Assembly (NCBI GenBank): GCA_026709085.1
Contig: JAPOTR010000034.1
Location: 62,001-126,000, forward strand
Direction of reading: 5' to 3'
Origin: Cyanobacteria bacterium MAG CAR3_bin_5
Lineage (GTDB): Bacteria; Cyanobacteriota; Cyanobacteriia; PCC-6307; Cyanobiaceae
Length of the DNA: 64,000 bases
Part shown: positions 30,889-53,057 of the stretch, in pieces
How the letters are laid out: each line of letters starts with the position of its first letter
Numbering within the stretch: position 1 is the first letter of the stretch
Notes under the pieces: model-generated
Database searches by the model: none
Seen by the model: the letters and a program-made list of their open reading frames with translations, nothing else
What the model was told of the DNA's origin: nothing
Program-made: the position numbers and the translations under genes

Positions 30889-30938
30889 GGTGACAGCATC
30901 ACAAAGATGTCTCAAGCCCTGTGGGTGTTTTGCGCTCC

Positions 30939-33806
30939 ATGGCGAATTCTCGCCAGCCCCGGCGTCTCGGCAAGCTGTTTGGTGCCATCTCCACCGCGGG
31001 ACTGTTCACGGTGGCCTCCCACGGCCCGTTGTTGGCCCAAGTGGAGCAGCCCGTTGATGGGCTGCATATGGCGGCGCCCATGGCCGAGGATCCGGGGCTG
31101 ATCCGGCCGGCGGCGCCCATGGCCCTGAACGGGGATGCGGCCCAACGCCAGGTGGCCCAGGCCCTGGATAACCTGAAGCTGGCCCAGGCCGGATCGGAAG
31201 AGGAGGAGGAAGACACCGGGGATCCGTCGGTGCTGCCCCTGGAGGAGGCGCCGGACGACCCTGGACGGGAGCGGATTCTCCCCGAGGAAGCCCCGTCCGG
31301 ATCTGTTCAGGACATTGCCCCTGAACAGGAGGTGCTCATTGCCGAAGTGGTCATCGTGGGGCTGGAGGATCACCCGGAAAGAGAACGGCTGGAGATCGTT
31401 GCCTACGACGCCATGGAGGTGCGGCCGGGTGCAACCACCACCCGCTCCCAAGTGAAAAGAGATCTCACCGCCGTCTACGCCACCGGCTGGTTCAGCCGTG
31501 TGGCGGTCGATTCAACCGACGGGCCGCTGGGGGTGCGCCTGGAGGTGATAGTTACCCCCAACCCTGTTCTGACTGGGGTGGAGTTGGTTGAACCGGAGGA
31601 GAAGGATATCCTGCTGCCCGACCAGGTGGTGCAGGAGGCCTTCGCGGCGGACCTTGGGCAAACCATTAACACGGTGAGCCTGGAGAGGCATTTAATCCGC
31701 TTGGAGGAGTGGTATCGCGAGCGAAACTACATCCTGGCCCAGGTGTCGGGGCCATCGCGAATTACCCCGGAAGGGGTGCTCATCCTCAGGGTTATTGAGG
31801 GCAGGGTGGGAGACATGAAGATTGAGTTCACAAATGAGGAGGGGGAAACCGTCGATGAAGACGGGGAGCCCATCCGCGGAGAGACCAAGCGCTGGGTCAT
31901 CACCCGGGAAATGGCCACCCAGGCGGGGGATCGCGTTAACCGCCGCGTCTTGGACAAGGACCGCGCACGTATTTTCGGCACCGGCTTGTTTTCCGATGTC
32001 ACTGCCTCCCTGGAGCCCATTCTATCCGGCCCTCCTGGTCGTTATACGCTGGTCTGGAAGATCCGTGAAGCCAAAACCGGCTCCCTCTCCGGCGGCCTTG
32101 GCTACAGTGGTACTCAGGGAGTGACAGGTCAGGTTGACTTCAGTGAGGACAACCTGTTTGGCCGCGCCTGGAGAACGACCACCCAGTTCACCTATGGCCG
32201 GACCGGAGTGATAGACCTTGCTTTCTACGATCCCTGGATTAAGGATGATCCTCATCGCACAGCCTTCCGGATGAATATCTCTATAGCCGAAGAATTTCCA
32301 CTGCAGTTTATACGTGAAGATGGAGACAACATTCGGGCAGTTAGATATTATCACGAAGCTGACAATCCCAACCCAGAAACTAAAGACAGGGTCTTTCTGG
32401 CAAAAGATATAGATAATCCTGACCGTTTTGTGGACCACCGTGATGGTGACACCTTCCCGATCCGTGATGGTCAGCCCTTCTTTCCGATCCGTGATAGTGA
32501 GACATTCCAGATCGGTGATGGTGAGACCCTCCAGATTGATGGTGATATCTCTGTGACCCGTGATGGTGAGACCGTAGAGATCCGTAGAGGTGAGACCTTG
32601 CTGGATACCTACGATATCCTTTATAATGGTGATACCTTAGATATCGTCCCGATCTTTGTTCGTCATATCTCTGTGACCCGTGATGGTGAGACCGTAGAGA
32701 CCCGTAGGGGTAGTATCTGGATCGGTGACAATAATAGTAACATCCGTGTGACCCGTGATGGTGAGGATACCCGTCAGATCCGTGATGGTGAGACCATGGA
32801 AACCCCTGCTGATCAGACCTTAAATATCCGTGTTCGTGAGCCCTTTAAGACCGATCCTAATCAGGAACCTAGGTATCAAGAATATAGCGGCAGTTTCATA
32901 AATCGTAAAACCCATAATCTTTTTGACTATAGTGGTGATCGTAACCATAACGTCCGCCTACGACGAACCGGGATTAATTTCCAGTTCGTCCGGCCTCTTA
33001 ACCAAGGCAATCCTCTTGCCGAGGACGTCAAATGGACGGCTTCCGCTGGTCTGACTTTCCAGCAAGTCAACGTTCAGGCTGGTCCTGATCGTGAACCCAG
33101 GGTTTGGGCAACGGGACCCAACGAGCCGGAGGAGAAGACGCCTGACGATTTCTTCTGTGTCGGCCATGATTGCAAATCCGAGAACATCCTGGCCGGATTT
33201 CGTCTTGGCGCCATCTATAATACCCTGGATAACGGAACCAATCCCACCAGCGGCAACTTTGCCAGCTTCTCCACAGAGCAATATATTTCCGTAGGGGAAG
33301 GGTCGCCAACCTTCAACCGCGCCCAGTTCAGCCTGGCCCATTTTATTCCCGTAAATCTGCTCAAAATCCACCCGGGTTGCCGCCCGGCCCCCGGAGAACC
33401 GCAAGAGTGCCCGCAGACCCTGGCTTTCCAGGTAACAGGCGGCGCCCTCCTGGGGGAGGATCCTCCCTATGAATCCTTCTGCCTCGGCGGCTCCACCTCC
33501 ATCCGCGGTTTCTATGAATGCGCCATCGGCCCCGGCTCGGCCTTCACGGAAGTGTCCATGGAGTATCGCTTTCCCATCATCGGCATTCTCAGCGGCGCTT
33601 TGTTCACCGATGCCGGCTCCGTTCTGGGAACCCAGGGGAGTGTCACGGGGAATCCCGGGAAACTCCTGGAGAAGCCGGGCAGCGGCTTCAGCTACGGCGC
33701 CGGCGTGGTGCTCAGCACTCCGTTGGGACCGCTGCGCGGGGAGATGGCCAAAGGCAACCACAACGACGGCTGGCGCTTCAACTTCGGCGTGGGCTGGAAG
33801 TTCTAG
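30939..33806 (+). CDS. Outer membrane assembly protein Omp85/BamA with repeat-expanded loop
   Basis: A 955-residue Omp85 protein that inserts beta-barrels in the outer membrane (related to plastid Toc75). Order: signal peptide (FGAISTAGLFTVASHGPLLA), acidic linker, three POTRA domains (about residues 128-205, 207-280 and 280-375), then a 16-strand barrel from about 380. The loop-6 motif is GGSTSIRGFYE, a variant of the usual VRGF/Y, and the protein ends with aromatic Phe (GVGWKF). About residues 460-675 are an extra segment between barrel strands 5 and 6, a predicted surface loop, made of degenerate 8-residue repeats and of lower G+C; usual cyanobacterial proteins are about 200 residues shorter. 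The start ATG 30939 precedes the signal peptide. Confidence 0.93.
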   Translation: MANSRQPRRLGKLFGAISTAGLFTVASHGPLLAQVEQPVDGLHMAAPMAEDPGLIRPAAPMALNGDAAQRQVAQALDNLKLAQAGSEEEEEDTGDPSVLPLEEAPDDPGRERILPEEAPSGSVQDIAPEQEVLIAEVVIVGLEDHPERERLEIVAYDAMEVRPGATTTRSQVKRDLTAVYATGWFSRVAVDSTDGPLGVRLEVIVTPNPVLTGVELVEPEEKDILLPDQVVQEAFAADLGQTINTVSLERHLIRLEEWYRERNYILAQVSGPSRITPEGVLILRVIEGRVGDMKIEFTNEEGETVDEDGEPIRGETKRWVITREMATQAGDRVNRRVLDKDRARIFGTGLFSDVTASLEPILSGPPGRYTLVWKIREAKTGSLSGGLGYSGTQGVTGQVDFSEDNLFGRAWRTTTQFTYGRTGVIDLAFYDPWIKDDPHRTAFRMNISIAEEFPLQFIREDGDNIRAVRYYHEADNPNPETKDRVFLAKDIDNPDRFVDHRDGDTFPIRDGQPFFPIRDSETFQIGDGETLQIDGDISVTRDGETVEIRRGETLLDTYDILYNGDTLDIVPIFVRHISVTRDGETVETRRGSIWIGDNNSNIRVTRDGEDTRQIRDGETMETPADQTLNIRVREPFKTDPNQEPRYQEYSGSFINRKTHNLFDYSGDRNHNVRLRRTGINFQFVRPLNQGNPLAEDVKWTASAGLTFQQVNVQAGPDREPRVWATGPNEPEEKTPDDFFCVGHDCKSENILAGFRLGAIYNTLDNGTNPTSGNFASFSTEQYISVGEGSPTFNRAQFSLAHFIPVNLLKIHPGCRPAPGEPQECPQTLAFQVTGGALLGEDPPYESFCLGGSTSIRGFYECAIGPGSAFTEVSMEYRFPIIGILSGALFTDAGSVLGTQGSVTGNPGKLLEKPGSGFSYGAGVVLSTPLGPLRGEMAKGNHNDGWRFNFGVGWKF
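32430..32830 (+). repeat. Degenerate 24-bp coding repeats in the Omp85 loop
   Basis: The unit encodes roughly R-D-G-E-T-x-x-I (8 residues, 24 bp). Copies include RDGDTFPI, RDSETFQI, GDGETLQI, RDGETVEI and IRDGETME. A 36-bp segment at 32545-32580 is repeated exactly at 32665-32700, 120 bp away, and the 19-bp TGTGACCCGTGATGGTGAG occurs at 32552, 32672 and 32747. All offsets are multiples of three, so copy change would keep the frame. G+C falls to about 45-50 % and codons shift to CGT, GAT and GGT, against CGC, GAC, GGC in the rest of the gene. Confidence 0.85.
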
Positions 33807-50857: not shown

Positions 50858-51637
50858 TTAGTTGGGGGGTAAATTCATGGAACGGCGCAGGGCGGCCAGT
50901 TCATCATCCACCTGGACTTGCTCCACCTGGACTTGCCGGGGGTTGGCCGTCTTGCTGTCCGGCAATACGGGTAGCGCCGGGGCAGGGGCCATGGAGGCTT
51001 TCAGGGCGGCCAGTTCATCGTCCACATCACTCCCTTGCAGGGCCTCGAAGCGAGCCTCCAGGTTGTCTCCCGCCAATTCCCCGATTGCTGCGGTTTCCGC
51101 CTCCAGGGACTCCACTTTTTCCTCCATGCGATCAAAGGCCGCCATGGCGGAATCCGTGCTGATGCCGCTGACGGCTCCCTCAAGCTGCTTCTGGGCCTGG
51201 GCCGCCTGGGCACGGGCCTTGAGGGTGTCTTTCCTGGTTTTGGCCTGGGCAATCTGGCCCTCCAGCTTCAGCAAGTTACGCTTCAGAACATCCACTTGGC
51301 CCGCCTGGGATTGCAACTGCCTGCTCAGGGACTGGGCAGTGTCCTCATGGGTCTTGCGCTGGGACAGGGCTTGGCGGGCCAGATCCTCATCCCCCCCCTT
51401 GAGAGCCAACTGGGCGCGGCCATACCAGTGGTCCGCCTGGACACGGGCTTGGCTGGCCTGGCGTTCAATGCGCTTCTGGCTGGCCACCGCCGTGGCCACC
51501 GCCTGGCGTAGTTTGACCAATTCCGCCTGCATGTCCATCAGGGACTGGTCCAGGATCTTGGCGGGATCCTCCGCACGACTCACCAGATCGTTGGCATTGG
51601 CGCGCATCAGTCGCCAAAGTCGTGAGAAGAAAGACAT
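50858..51637 (-). CDS. vipp1: Vipp1/IM30 (PspA family)
   Basis: A 259-residue ESCRT-III-like membrane remodelling protein for thylakoid biogenesis. The amphipathic N-terminal helix is MSFFSRLWRLMRANANDLVS, followed by AEDPAKILDQSLMDMQAELV and long helices through residue 215. The C-terminal extension that separates Vipp1 from PspA is present. Within it the motif VDDELAAL occurs twice (at about residues 205 and 244), joined by a Pro/Ala/Val linker; the second copy ends the protein (ELAALRRSMNLPPN). Convergent with TIGR03943 and about 70 bp upstream of the coiled-coil gene's end. Confidence 0.94.
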   Translation of the reverse strand: MSFFSRLWRLMRANANDLVSRAEDPAKILDQSLMDMQAELVKLRQAVATAVASQKRIERQASQARVQADHWYGRAQLALKGGDEDLARQALSQRKTHEDTAQSLSRQLQSQAGQVDVLKRNLLKLEGQIAQAKTRKDTLKARAQAAQAQKQLEGAVSGISTDSAMAAFDRMEEKVESLEAETAAIGELAGDNLEARFEALQGSDVDDELAALKASMAPAPALPVLPDSKTANPRQVQVEQVQVDDELAALRRSMNLPPN

Positions 51638-51705: not shown

Positions 51706-52335
51706 TCAGGTGGGGATTGAGGGCTGTTTGGGTAGCAGAAGTTGGTACACCTGATCAATACGGCTGCTCAGGGTGTCCATGCGGCCACTGAGATTGTCCA
51801 TCCGGGCGCTGAGACTGGCGCTGAGGTCGTCCATCCGGGCGCTGAGGTCATCCATCCAGGCACTGAGGTCATCCATCCGGGCACTGAGAGTAGCCCTGAG
51901 GTCGTCCATCCGGGCGCCGAGACTGGCGCTGAGGTCATCCATCCGGGTGCTGAGGTCATCCATCCGGGTGCTGAGGTCGTCCATCCGGGCGCCGAGGCTG
52001 GCGCTGAGGTCATCGATGCGGGTGTTGACGTCCCGGATATCGGCTTTGAACTCCGCAGTGAACGCATCCATGCGGGCGTTGAGACTGGCGCCCAGGTCGT
52101 CGATGCGGGTTTCCAGGGTGTCCATGCGAGTCCCGAGATCGTCGATACGGGCGCTCATGCCGTAGATCCCCAAAGCGATGGACACCAATAAGCCAATGAT
52201 GGTCACCGCCACGCCAATCGCGGCGATCACAACGGCGGGTTCCACCCATGGGCGGCGACCATCCCTGCTGTGCATAGCGGCGTTTGATGCCTGGGCTGGT
52301 GTCTTAGGGTGGATGGGCGGCGTGTCGGTGGTCAT
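51706..52335 (-). CDS. Single-pass membrane protein with repetitive coiled coil
   Basis: A 209-residue protein from ATG 52333-52335 (MTTDTPPIHPKTPAQASNAA). A polar 38-residue N-terminus is followed by one membrane helix (about residues 39-66, AVVIAAIGVAVTIIGLLVSI). The remainder is a long coiled coil made of heptads such as ARMDDLS, TRMDDLS and SRIDQVY, broken by four-residue ASLG/ASLS/ATLS inserts that give 11-residue steps. The end is QLLLPKQPSIPT. The sequence is of low complexity at DNA level too. No known domain; family and function unknown. It precedes vipp1 on the same strand. Confidence 0.78.
   Translation of the reverse strand: MTTDTPPIHPKTPAQASNAAMHSRDGRRPWVEPAVVIAAIGVAVTIIGLLVSIALGIYGMSARIDDLGTRMDTLETRIDDLGASLNARMDAFTAEFKADIRDVNTRIDDLSASLGARMDDLSTRMDDLSTRMDDLSASLGARMDDLRATLSARMDDLSAWMDDLSARMDDLSASLSARMDNLSGRMDTLSSRIDQVYQLLLPKQPSIPT
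51775..52020 (-). repeat. 21-bp coding repeats of the coiled-coil gene
   Basis: Units of the type GTCATCCATCCGGGTGCTGA recur in 21-bp steps between about 51775 and 52020, encoding heptads with Arg-Met-Asp-Asp-Leu-Ser. Twelve-base ASLG-type inserts add 33-bp steps. Neighbouring copies at 51940-51980 are nearly identical, pointing to slippage or unequal crossing over. All offsets keep the frame. Confidence 0.75.
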
Positions 52336-52502
52336 GGGCCGGCGGCCTCGGTGCTGACTCCAGAGGCTGCCCACAAGTGGCGGCTCCCTCACACTATACT
52401 GCCTTCCGCCACAAGCTGGACATGTGGGGGAGGTATGTGGTGGCGCTTCTGGGCTGGTTGGACTGATAATTGCTTGGGTGGCTGGTGACTGTGGGCATGG
52501 GG

Positions 52503-53057
52503 ATGAAGACGTCTGGACTGCAAGCATCCAGGCCTGGGGATGGCGTGGGGGTGCGGCCGGCACAGGTGCTGAGGCCGAGCCGGCGCGAGGCGCCCCGGAC
52601 ACTGGGCCATTGCCTGCAAACGGTGCAACAGCACTGGACAGGCCCCATGGCCCGGCTCAGCCGGCAGTGGTCCCGCTGGGCCGGCCCCACGCTGGCGGCG
52701 CGCTGCCGTCCCCTCAGCCTCCACGGGCGCACCCTGACGGTGGCCGTGGACCAACCCCATTGGCTCCAGGCGGTTCAGTACAGCCGTCACCAGCTCTTGG
52801 GACGCTTGCAGGCGGCTGGCTTTGCCATCGCGGAATTGCGGCTGCAGCAGCGGTCACCCCGGCCCTCGGCAGACCTGGACCAGCGTCAGCAGCAGCAAAG
52901 CTGGGACCGGCACCCCAGCCGCGGCCCCATGGGGAACCACGTCTGCCCGCGGTGTCACACACCCACGCCCCCAAGGGAGTTGCAGCGTTGGGGGCACTGC
53001 TGCTTCTGCCAGCGGTCATCCCTGCCGCCCCCTCCTCTCCAGCAGGGTCCCGGGTGA
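52503..53057 (+). CDS. DUF721 (DciA-like) protein with C-terminal zinc ribbon
   Basis: About 184 residues from ATG 52503. The DUF721 domain runs from TLGHCLQTVQQHWTGPMARL through LHGRTLTVAVDQPHWLQAVQ to about residue 115; the family includes DciA, the ancestral loader of the replicative helicase DnaB. The C-terminal part has two CxxC knuckles (CPRCHTPTPPRELQRWGHCC then FC) typical of cyanobacterial members, suggesting a zinc-binding tail. Upstream in-frame starts exist. Followed 29 bp later by panE. DciA role here is inference. Confidence 0.75.
   Translation: MKTSGLQASRPGDGVGVRPAQVLRPSRREAPRTLGHCLQTVQQHWTGPMARLSRQWSRWAGPTLAARCRPLSLHGRTLTVAVDQPHWLQAVQYSRHQLLGRLQAAGFAIAELRLQQRSPRPSADLDQRQQQQSWDRHPSRGPMGNHVCPRCHTPTPPRELQRWGHCCFCQRSSLPPPPLQQGPG

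Follow-up and report, generated by a model that had tools for sequence, protein, structure and literature searches.

Results

The omp85 locus and its genome

The window (the whole 64,000-nucleotide stretch of DNA that was analysed) contains a gene for a cyanobacterial BamA-type Omp85 protein, with purD and purC upstream and lpxC, fabZ and lpxA downstream (neighbors named by reading their open reading frames). The contig that carries the window, C4, belongs to a draft genome of 2.37 Mb, G000, that is ~95% complete. Because Candidatus Synechococcus spongiarum SH4 was the only strong named relative found (74% identity in the best segment), the organism belongs, as judged from sequence similarity, to the Candidatus Synechococcus spongiarum group, a genus of sponge symbionts that is known to be host-associated (PMC5408123). 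The features of the gene are as follows.

30921..33806, + strand: omp85 (cyanobacterial BamA-type), 961-residue open reading frame; Pfam Omp85 at 5.9e-50, plus POTRA and POTRA_2
31323..32060, + strand: three periplasmic POTRA domains (P2 ~31569-31799, P3 ~31800-32060), from Pfam and phmmer
32061..32309, + strand: barrel strands 1-5, ending PLQF, from profile alignment to E. coli BamA 394-490
32310..32951, + strand: extracellular loop 3 (L3), 214 residues, from alignment with nine congeners and 34 family members
32436..32900, + strand: repeat-built expansion of 155 residues, ~14 degenerate 24-bp (8-residue) units with consensus RDGETxxI
32545..32580, + strand: 36-bp exact repeat, copy 1
32665..32700, + strand: 36-bp exact repeat, copy 2, at an offset of 120
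32552, 32672 and 32747, + strand: three copies of the 19-bp block TGTGACCCGTGATGGTGAG (the third at 32747..32765)
32952..33803, + strand: barrel strands 6-16, which contain the SIRGF motif of L6 and end in WKF, from sequence and alignment

Two POTRA matches lie above the Pfam cut-offs (PF07244 at residues 140-213 and PF08479 at 231-294), and the domains match the POTRA structure of Nostoc Alr2269 (3mc8) in phmmer. The (V/I)RG(F/Y) motif of L6 is present as SIRGF at residues 860-864 and the protein ends in an aromatic residue, F961. Together with the Pfam domains, these agree with an earlier sequence-only reading of this DNA, which had described the loop-6 RGF and C-terminal Phe as normal. The single PF01103 locus is the only Omp85 found in the genome. 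This is presumably an ordinary, single-copy and essential BamA-type protein, and its single copy and conservation suggest that it is active in outer membrane protein (OMP) assembly.

Position of the insertion on the barrel

The insertion was placed by aligning short-loop barrels of cyanobacteria and Fusobacterium, combined in a profile, to the solved E. coli BamA. The alignment runs from strand 1 across the NPYF turn on the periplasmic side to strand 5. The insertion comes immediately after it, where BamA has L3; thus, the sequence-only placement between strands 5 and 6 holds. In E. coli BamA, L3 is surface-exposed, since an epitope placed in it was detected on whole cells, and it is the only loop among those tested whose deletion was tolerated (PMC3871556). 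Although L3 could be deleted, a 9-residue HA-tag insertion in it was severe (PMC3871556), indicating that tolerance of insertions is not general and that position within the loop matters. AlphaFold2 gave a pLDDT of 30 for the barrel (from a four-sequence alignment) and 37 for the insert alone, too low for either model to be usable, and the viral contigs scanned held no further barrel relatives with which to deepen the structure alignment. The net charge of the insert is -14 in G000 and -16 in G002, the sister species that also carries it.

A degenerate, in-frame repeat array

The insert contains exact repeats of 36, 19, 19, 16, 16 and 14 bp, among others, all in frame. For all ten repeat pairs of at least 13 bp the offset is divisible by three, as the sequence-only reading had noted of its repeats, whereas shuffling the codons of this stretch 200 times produced at most one such pair (mean 0.02) and a longest repeat of 14 bp. 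The 36-bp block repeated exactly 120 bp away and the 19-bp block in three copies, both described in that reading, were recovered at the positions listed above, both beyond what the shuffles produced. Tandem Repeats Finder (TRF) reported an array of 24-bp period at 32438-32599, and a repeat search found 11 related 42-nt copies across 32438-32845. The 15-mer core of the unit, allowing up to three mismatches, has 14 matches in the window against 2.5 expected. The DNA consensus of the unit is CGTGATGGTGAGACC(TTA/TTC)GAGATC, which encodes RDGETxxI; degenerate units number ~14 in the window gene and ~11 in G002, and the reading frame through the window array is intact.

The array is unlike ON/OFF phase-variable simple repeats in that its period is 24 and its offsets are all multiples of three. 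Because the unit length is a multiple of three, changes in copy number alter the length of the loop without switching the gene off. The array also differs from the RTX nonapeptide (GGxGxDxUx) in its 8-residue period and RDGETxxI consensus, and Pfam gave no RTX match.

The window contains a second coding tandem-repeat array. A gene at 51706-52602 on the minus strand, adjoining a PspA/IM30 gene (50858-51637), encodes a protein of 298 residues; it appears to have a single membrane segment, and its coiled-coil tail consists of tandem repeats of 7 residues, or 21 bp (RMDDLSA).

Loop 3 in relatives

L3 has 214 residues in G000 and 197 in G002, and 50, 58, 58, 58, 58, 60, 61 and 62 residues in eight other members of the genus. 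The extra length is thus ~150-155 residues, fewer than the ~200 given in the sequence-only reading. In 34 other family members, which are best-scoring or split matches and not a random sample, L3 has 16-69 residues (median 59), and among the other family matches listed, single alignments cross L3 with match spans close to the query span. The other loops barely vary: L6 always has 30 residues, L7 has 21-23, L8 has 3-6 and L4 has 31-45. As in hypervariable OMP loops, variation is concentrated in an extracellular loop and the barrel is conserved, by both loop lengths and dN by region. The data comprise one genome per species, so this is variation between species. Close relatives do not share one unvarying length, which would have counted against the sequence-only reading: both the length of L3 and the order of its repeats differ between them. 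Repeat growth on this scale within the barrel of an essential assembly machine is unusual: it occurs in two of the 44 genomes with L3 measured, and these two are sisters.

L3 is just 16-24 residues long in G025 and other genomes of g17, and in G055 and other genomes of g47 (e.g., L092, L105). Thus, loop 3 has both shrunk and grown in this family.

Base composition and codon use

The insert uses CGT for 14 of 17 Arg, GAT for 17 of 19 Asp, GGT for 13 of 14 Gly, ACC for 16 of 17 Thr and ATC for 14 of 16 Ile codons, confirming the use of GAT, CGT and GGT by which the insert differs from the rest of the gene. Codon use is nearly identical and highly one-sided in the inserts of G000 and G002, as would follow from the descent of all units from a single seed. 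The sequence-only reading had also called the insertion low in G+C. Low GC3 is real, but it does not mark the insert specifically: GC3 is 0.32-0.59 in L3 and 0.53-0.73 elsewhere in the gene in all ten genus members, and the short L3 of G009 has a GC3 of 0.32. Because low GC3 is common to L3 throughout the genus, short loops included, it is no evidence of foreign DNA.

Search for the array at other loci

Matches to the unit core within two mismatches cluster in G000 solely at omp85; the others are single, scattered and chance-like. Within the genus, perfect matches to the spaced pattern occur only in the Omp85 of G000 and G002, and the consensus repeat peptide, searched against 299 order genomes, gave strong matches solely in the same two proteins. 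The insert had no relatives in the phages, plasmids and viral contigs searched, no match above thresholds in Pfam, NCBIfam or PDB sequences, and, at other loci, no match beyond weak unrelated ones in 251 genomes of the family and 299 of the order. The weak matches in G008, G084, G109 and G236 are to unrelated proteins, and Cupin matches fell below the Pfam cut-off. Neither cassette switching (of the vls or pilS type) nor a diversity-generating retroelement is suggested by the pattern and insert searches, which found no second copy in the ~95% complete genome. A hairpin in the third POTRA domain, EEGETVDEDGEPIRGE, was considered as the seed of the repeat and rejected: its motif is conserved in distant cyanobacteria and its DNA is unlike the units.

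Two viral contigs, L142 (7186-7203) and L143 (5384-5401), carry the exact 18-mer ATCCGTGATGGTGAGACC, probably by chance.

Origin and rearrangement of the array

G000 and G002 are sisters (support 99/99), and short-loop G009 is their next relative (100/100), so a single origin of the expansion in the ancestor of G000 and G002 is simplest. The two inserts are not collinear in the order or content of their units, and each species has exact duplications of its own: the 36-bp block in G000 and two identical PDGEPVVI units in G002. Mean unit identity is 0.61 within genomes and 0.60 between genomes. This equality suggests that most units diverged before the species split, and fast homogenizing turnover is not evident from it. 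We consider one origin, followed by frame-preserving rearrangement of the array, to be the likeliest history from these comparisons.

Accelerated evolution of the POTRA domains

The POTRA domains, called normal in the sequence-only reading, are all present but evolve unusually fast in the window lineage. Of 141 POTRA sites without variation in the other nine species, 24 carry a unique substitution here, compared with 3 of 210 such sites in the barrel (Fisher p = 7e-8). Changes at residues invariant across the family sample include L251T, G269N, F339V and Y352F. Branch dN/dS in this lineage is 1.09 for P2 and 0.67 for P3, against 0.1-0.4 in the barrel, where strands 6-16 (0.11) are under strong constraint, and 0.12 in purC of the same genome. 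In G002, branch dN/dS is 0.21 (P2) and 0.30 (P3), with 0 unique changes. Because G002 shares the loop without the acceleration, the two are not obviously linked. The synonymous distance of the POTRA region to G002 (dS 0.29) is barrel-like, making import of a diverged allele unlikely.

Discussion

We favor, with a probability of about 0.5, a combined account in which the L3 of a BamA-type Omp85 has grown by the copying of a unit, has been tolerated, and has been kept because it alters surface recognition. The unit would have arisen in the common ancestor of G000 and G002 and multiplied by slippage or unequal recombination, and the product would be a surface domain that is acidic (net charge -14) and probably rich in beta-hairpins. 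We propose that its turnover is tolerated since no loop of BamA is more dispensable than L3; with a unit of 24 bp, loop length can change in frame, and no other type of length change would be survivable in an essential gene. The last step is less certain: the loop may be kept because it alters how phages, competitors or the sponge recognize the cell surface. Recognition is a sensible reason given that BamA loops serve as phage receptors and that OMP loops of symbionts can be hypervariable; L3 may have a role in phage evasion or adhesion, as the sequence-only reading supposed. Phages that use BamA need loops 4, 6 and 7 for infection, and an insertion in loop 4 or loop 7 blocks it (PMC6020778). 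However, the BamA contacts known for phages and CDI lie in loops 4, 6 and 7 and not in L3 (PMC6020778, PMC5371414), which counts against the recognition account. We think it unlikely that L3 is a dedicated, fast-rearranging recognition-evasion domain on an essential protein that cannot be lost, with in-frame 24-bp units changing the surface that the sponge symbiont presents to phages or host phagocytes without turning the gene off.

The strong rival to recognition is neutral growth of a dispensable loop. A chance tandem duplication in L3 of the ancestor could have been kept and scrambled by drift in a host-restricted symbiont, without any function. We regard this as a serious, if tentative, possibility: the length of L3 varies family-wide anyway (16-69), low GC3 is found in the L3 of all congeners, deletion of the loop is tolerated in E. 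coli (PMC3871556), and L3 dN/dS between G000 and G002 is 0.81 on the best available but unreliable alignment, near neutrality. Yet the insert is still open, and its size (155 and 138 residues) and charge have stayed similar since a split at which flank dS is ~0.3; a useless extension this large on an essential protein should also carry a cost. Instead, the repeats might anchor the symbiont in its host by binding a sponge ligand such as matrix or a lectin. The surface position, from the profile alignment and PMC3871556, the acidic and repetitive composition and the host-associated genus (SH4 match; PMC5408123) fit such an adhesin, but eight of the ten species of the genus are without the expansion, and the insert has no similarity to known adhesin families in Pfam, NCBIfam or PDB sequences, so we consider this quite improbable.

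A change in the BAM machine itself, with the loop and the fast POTRA domains as parts of one functional shift in substrate handling, would account for the P2 and P3 rates relative to strands 6-16 and for the unique changes at otherwise invariant POTRA sites. However, G002 has the loop and slow POTRA domains, so the changes are not tied together, and we give this reading very little weight. Least credible is import of the domain, or of a mobile repeat, from another gene, a phage or a plasmid. The distinct codon use of the insert would fit import, but low GC3 is common to the short loops too, and the searches of phages, plasmids, viral contigs and other loci in family and order genomes returned nothing beyond weak unrelated matches.

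Should the loop prove variable within host populations, it would serve as a marker, open to direct reading, of the pressure that phages or the host exert on an uncultured symbiont. It would also show, as a natural example, how extensively the surface loop of a BamA protein can be rebuilt in a machine that still works.

The window protein shares with cyanobacterial Omp85/BamA proteins such as Alr2269 and TLR1789 (PF01103 plus POTRA) the three POTRA domains, the Omp85 barrel profile, the L6 RGF-type motif, the C-terminal Phe and its single copy. It differs from them in an L3 that is at least three times longer than that of any of the 42 other, short-loop relatives measured and is built from 8-residue repeats. 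Like the variable-number coding tandem repeats of Treponema pallidum arp and tp0470 (PMC9531955), the array lies within a coding sequence and changes protein length. Those repeats are in other proteins, whereas the window copies are strongly degenerate and lie inside a barrel loop. The loops of E. coli BamA that serve as receptors for phages and CdiA are extracellular loops of the same protein family, and changes in them alter recognition; they are loops 4, 6 and 7, whereas the expanded loop here is L3 (PMC6020778, PMC5371414). Hypervariable OMP loops have a precedent among symbionts of invertebrates in WSP of Wolbachia (PMC2843615). In both symbionts the variation lies in an extracellular loop of a conserved barrel, but here, unlike in WSP, a single loop of an essential insertase has grown by tandem repeats, and the variation known is between species.
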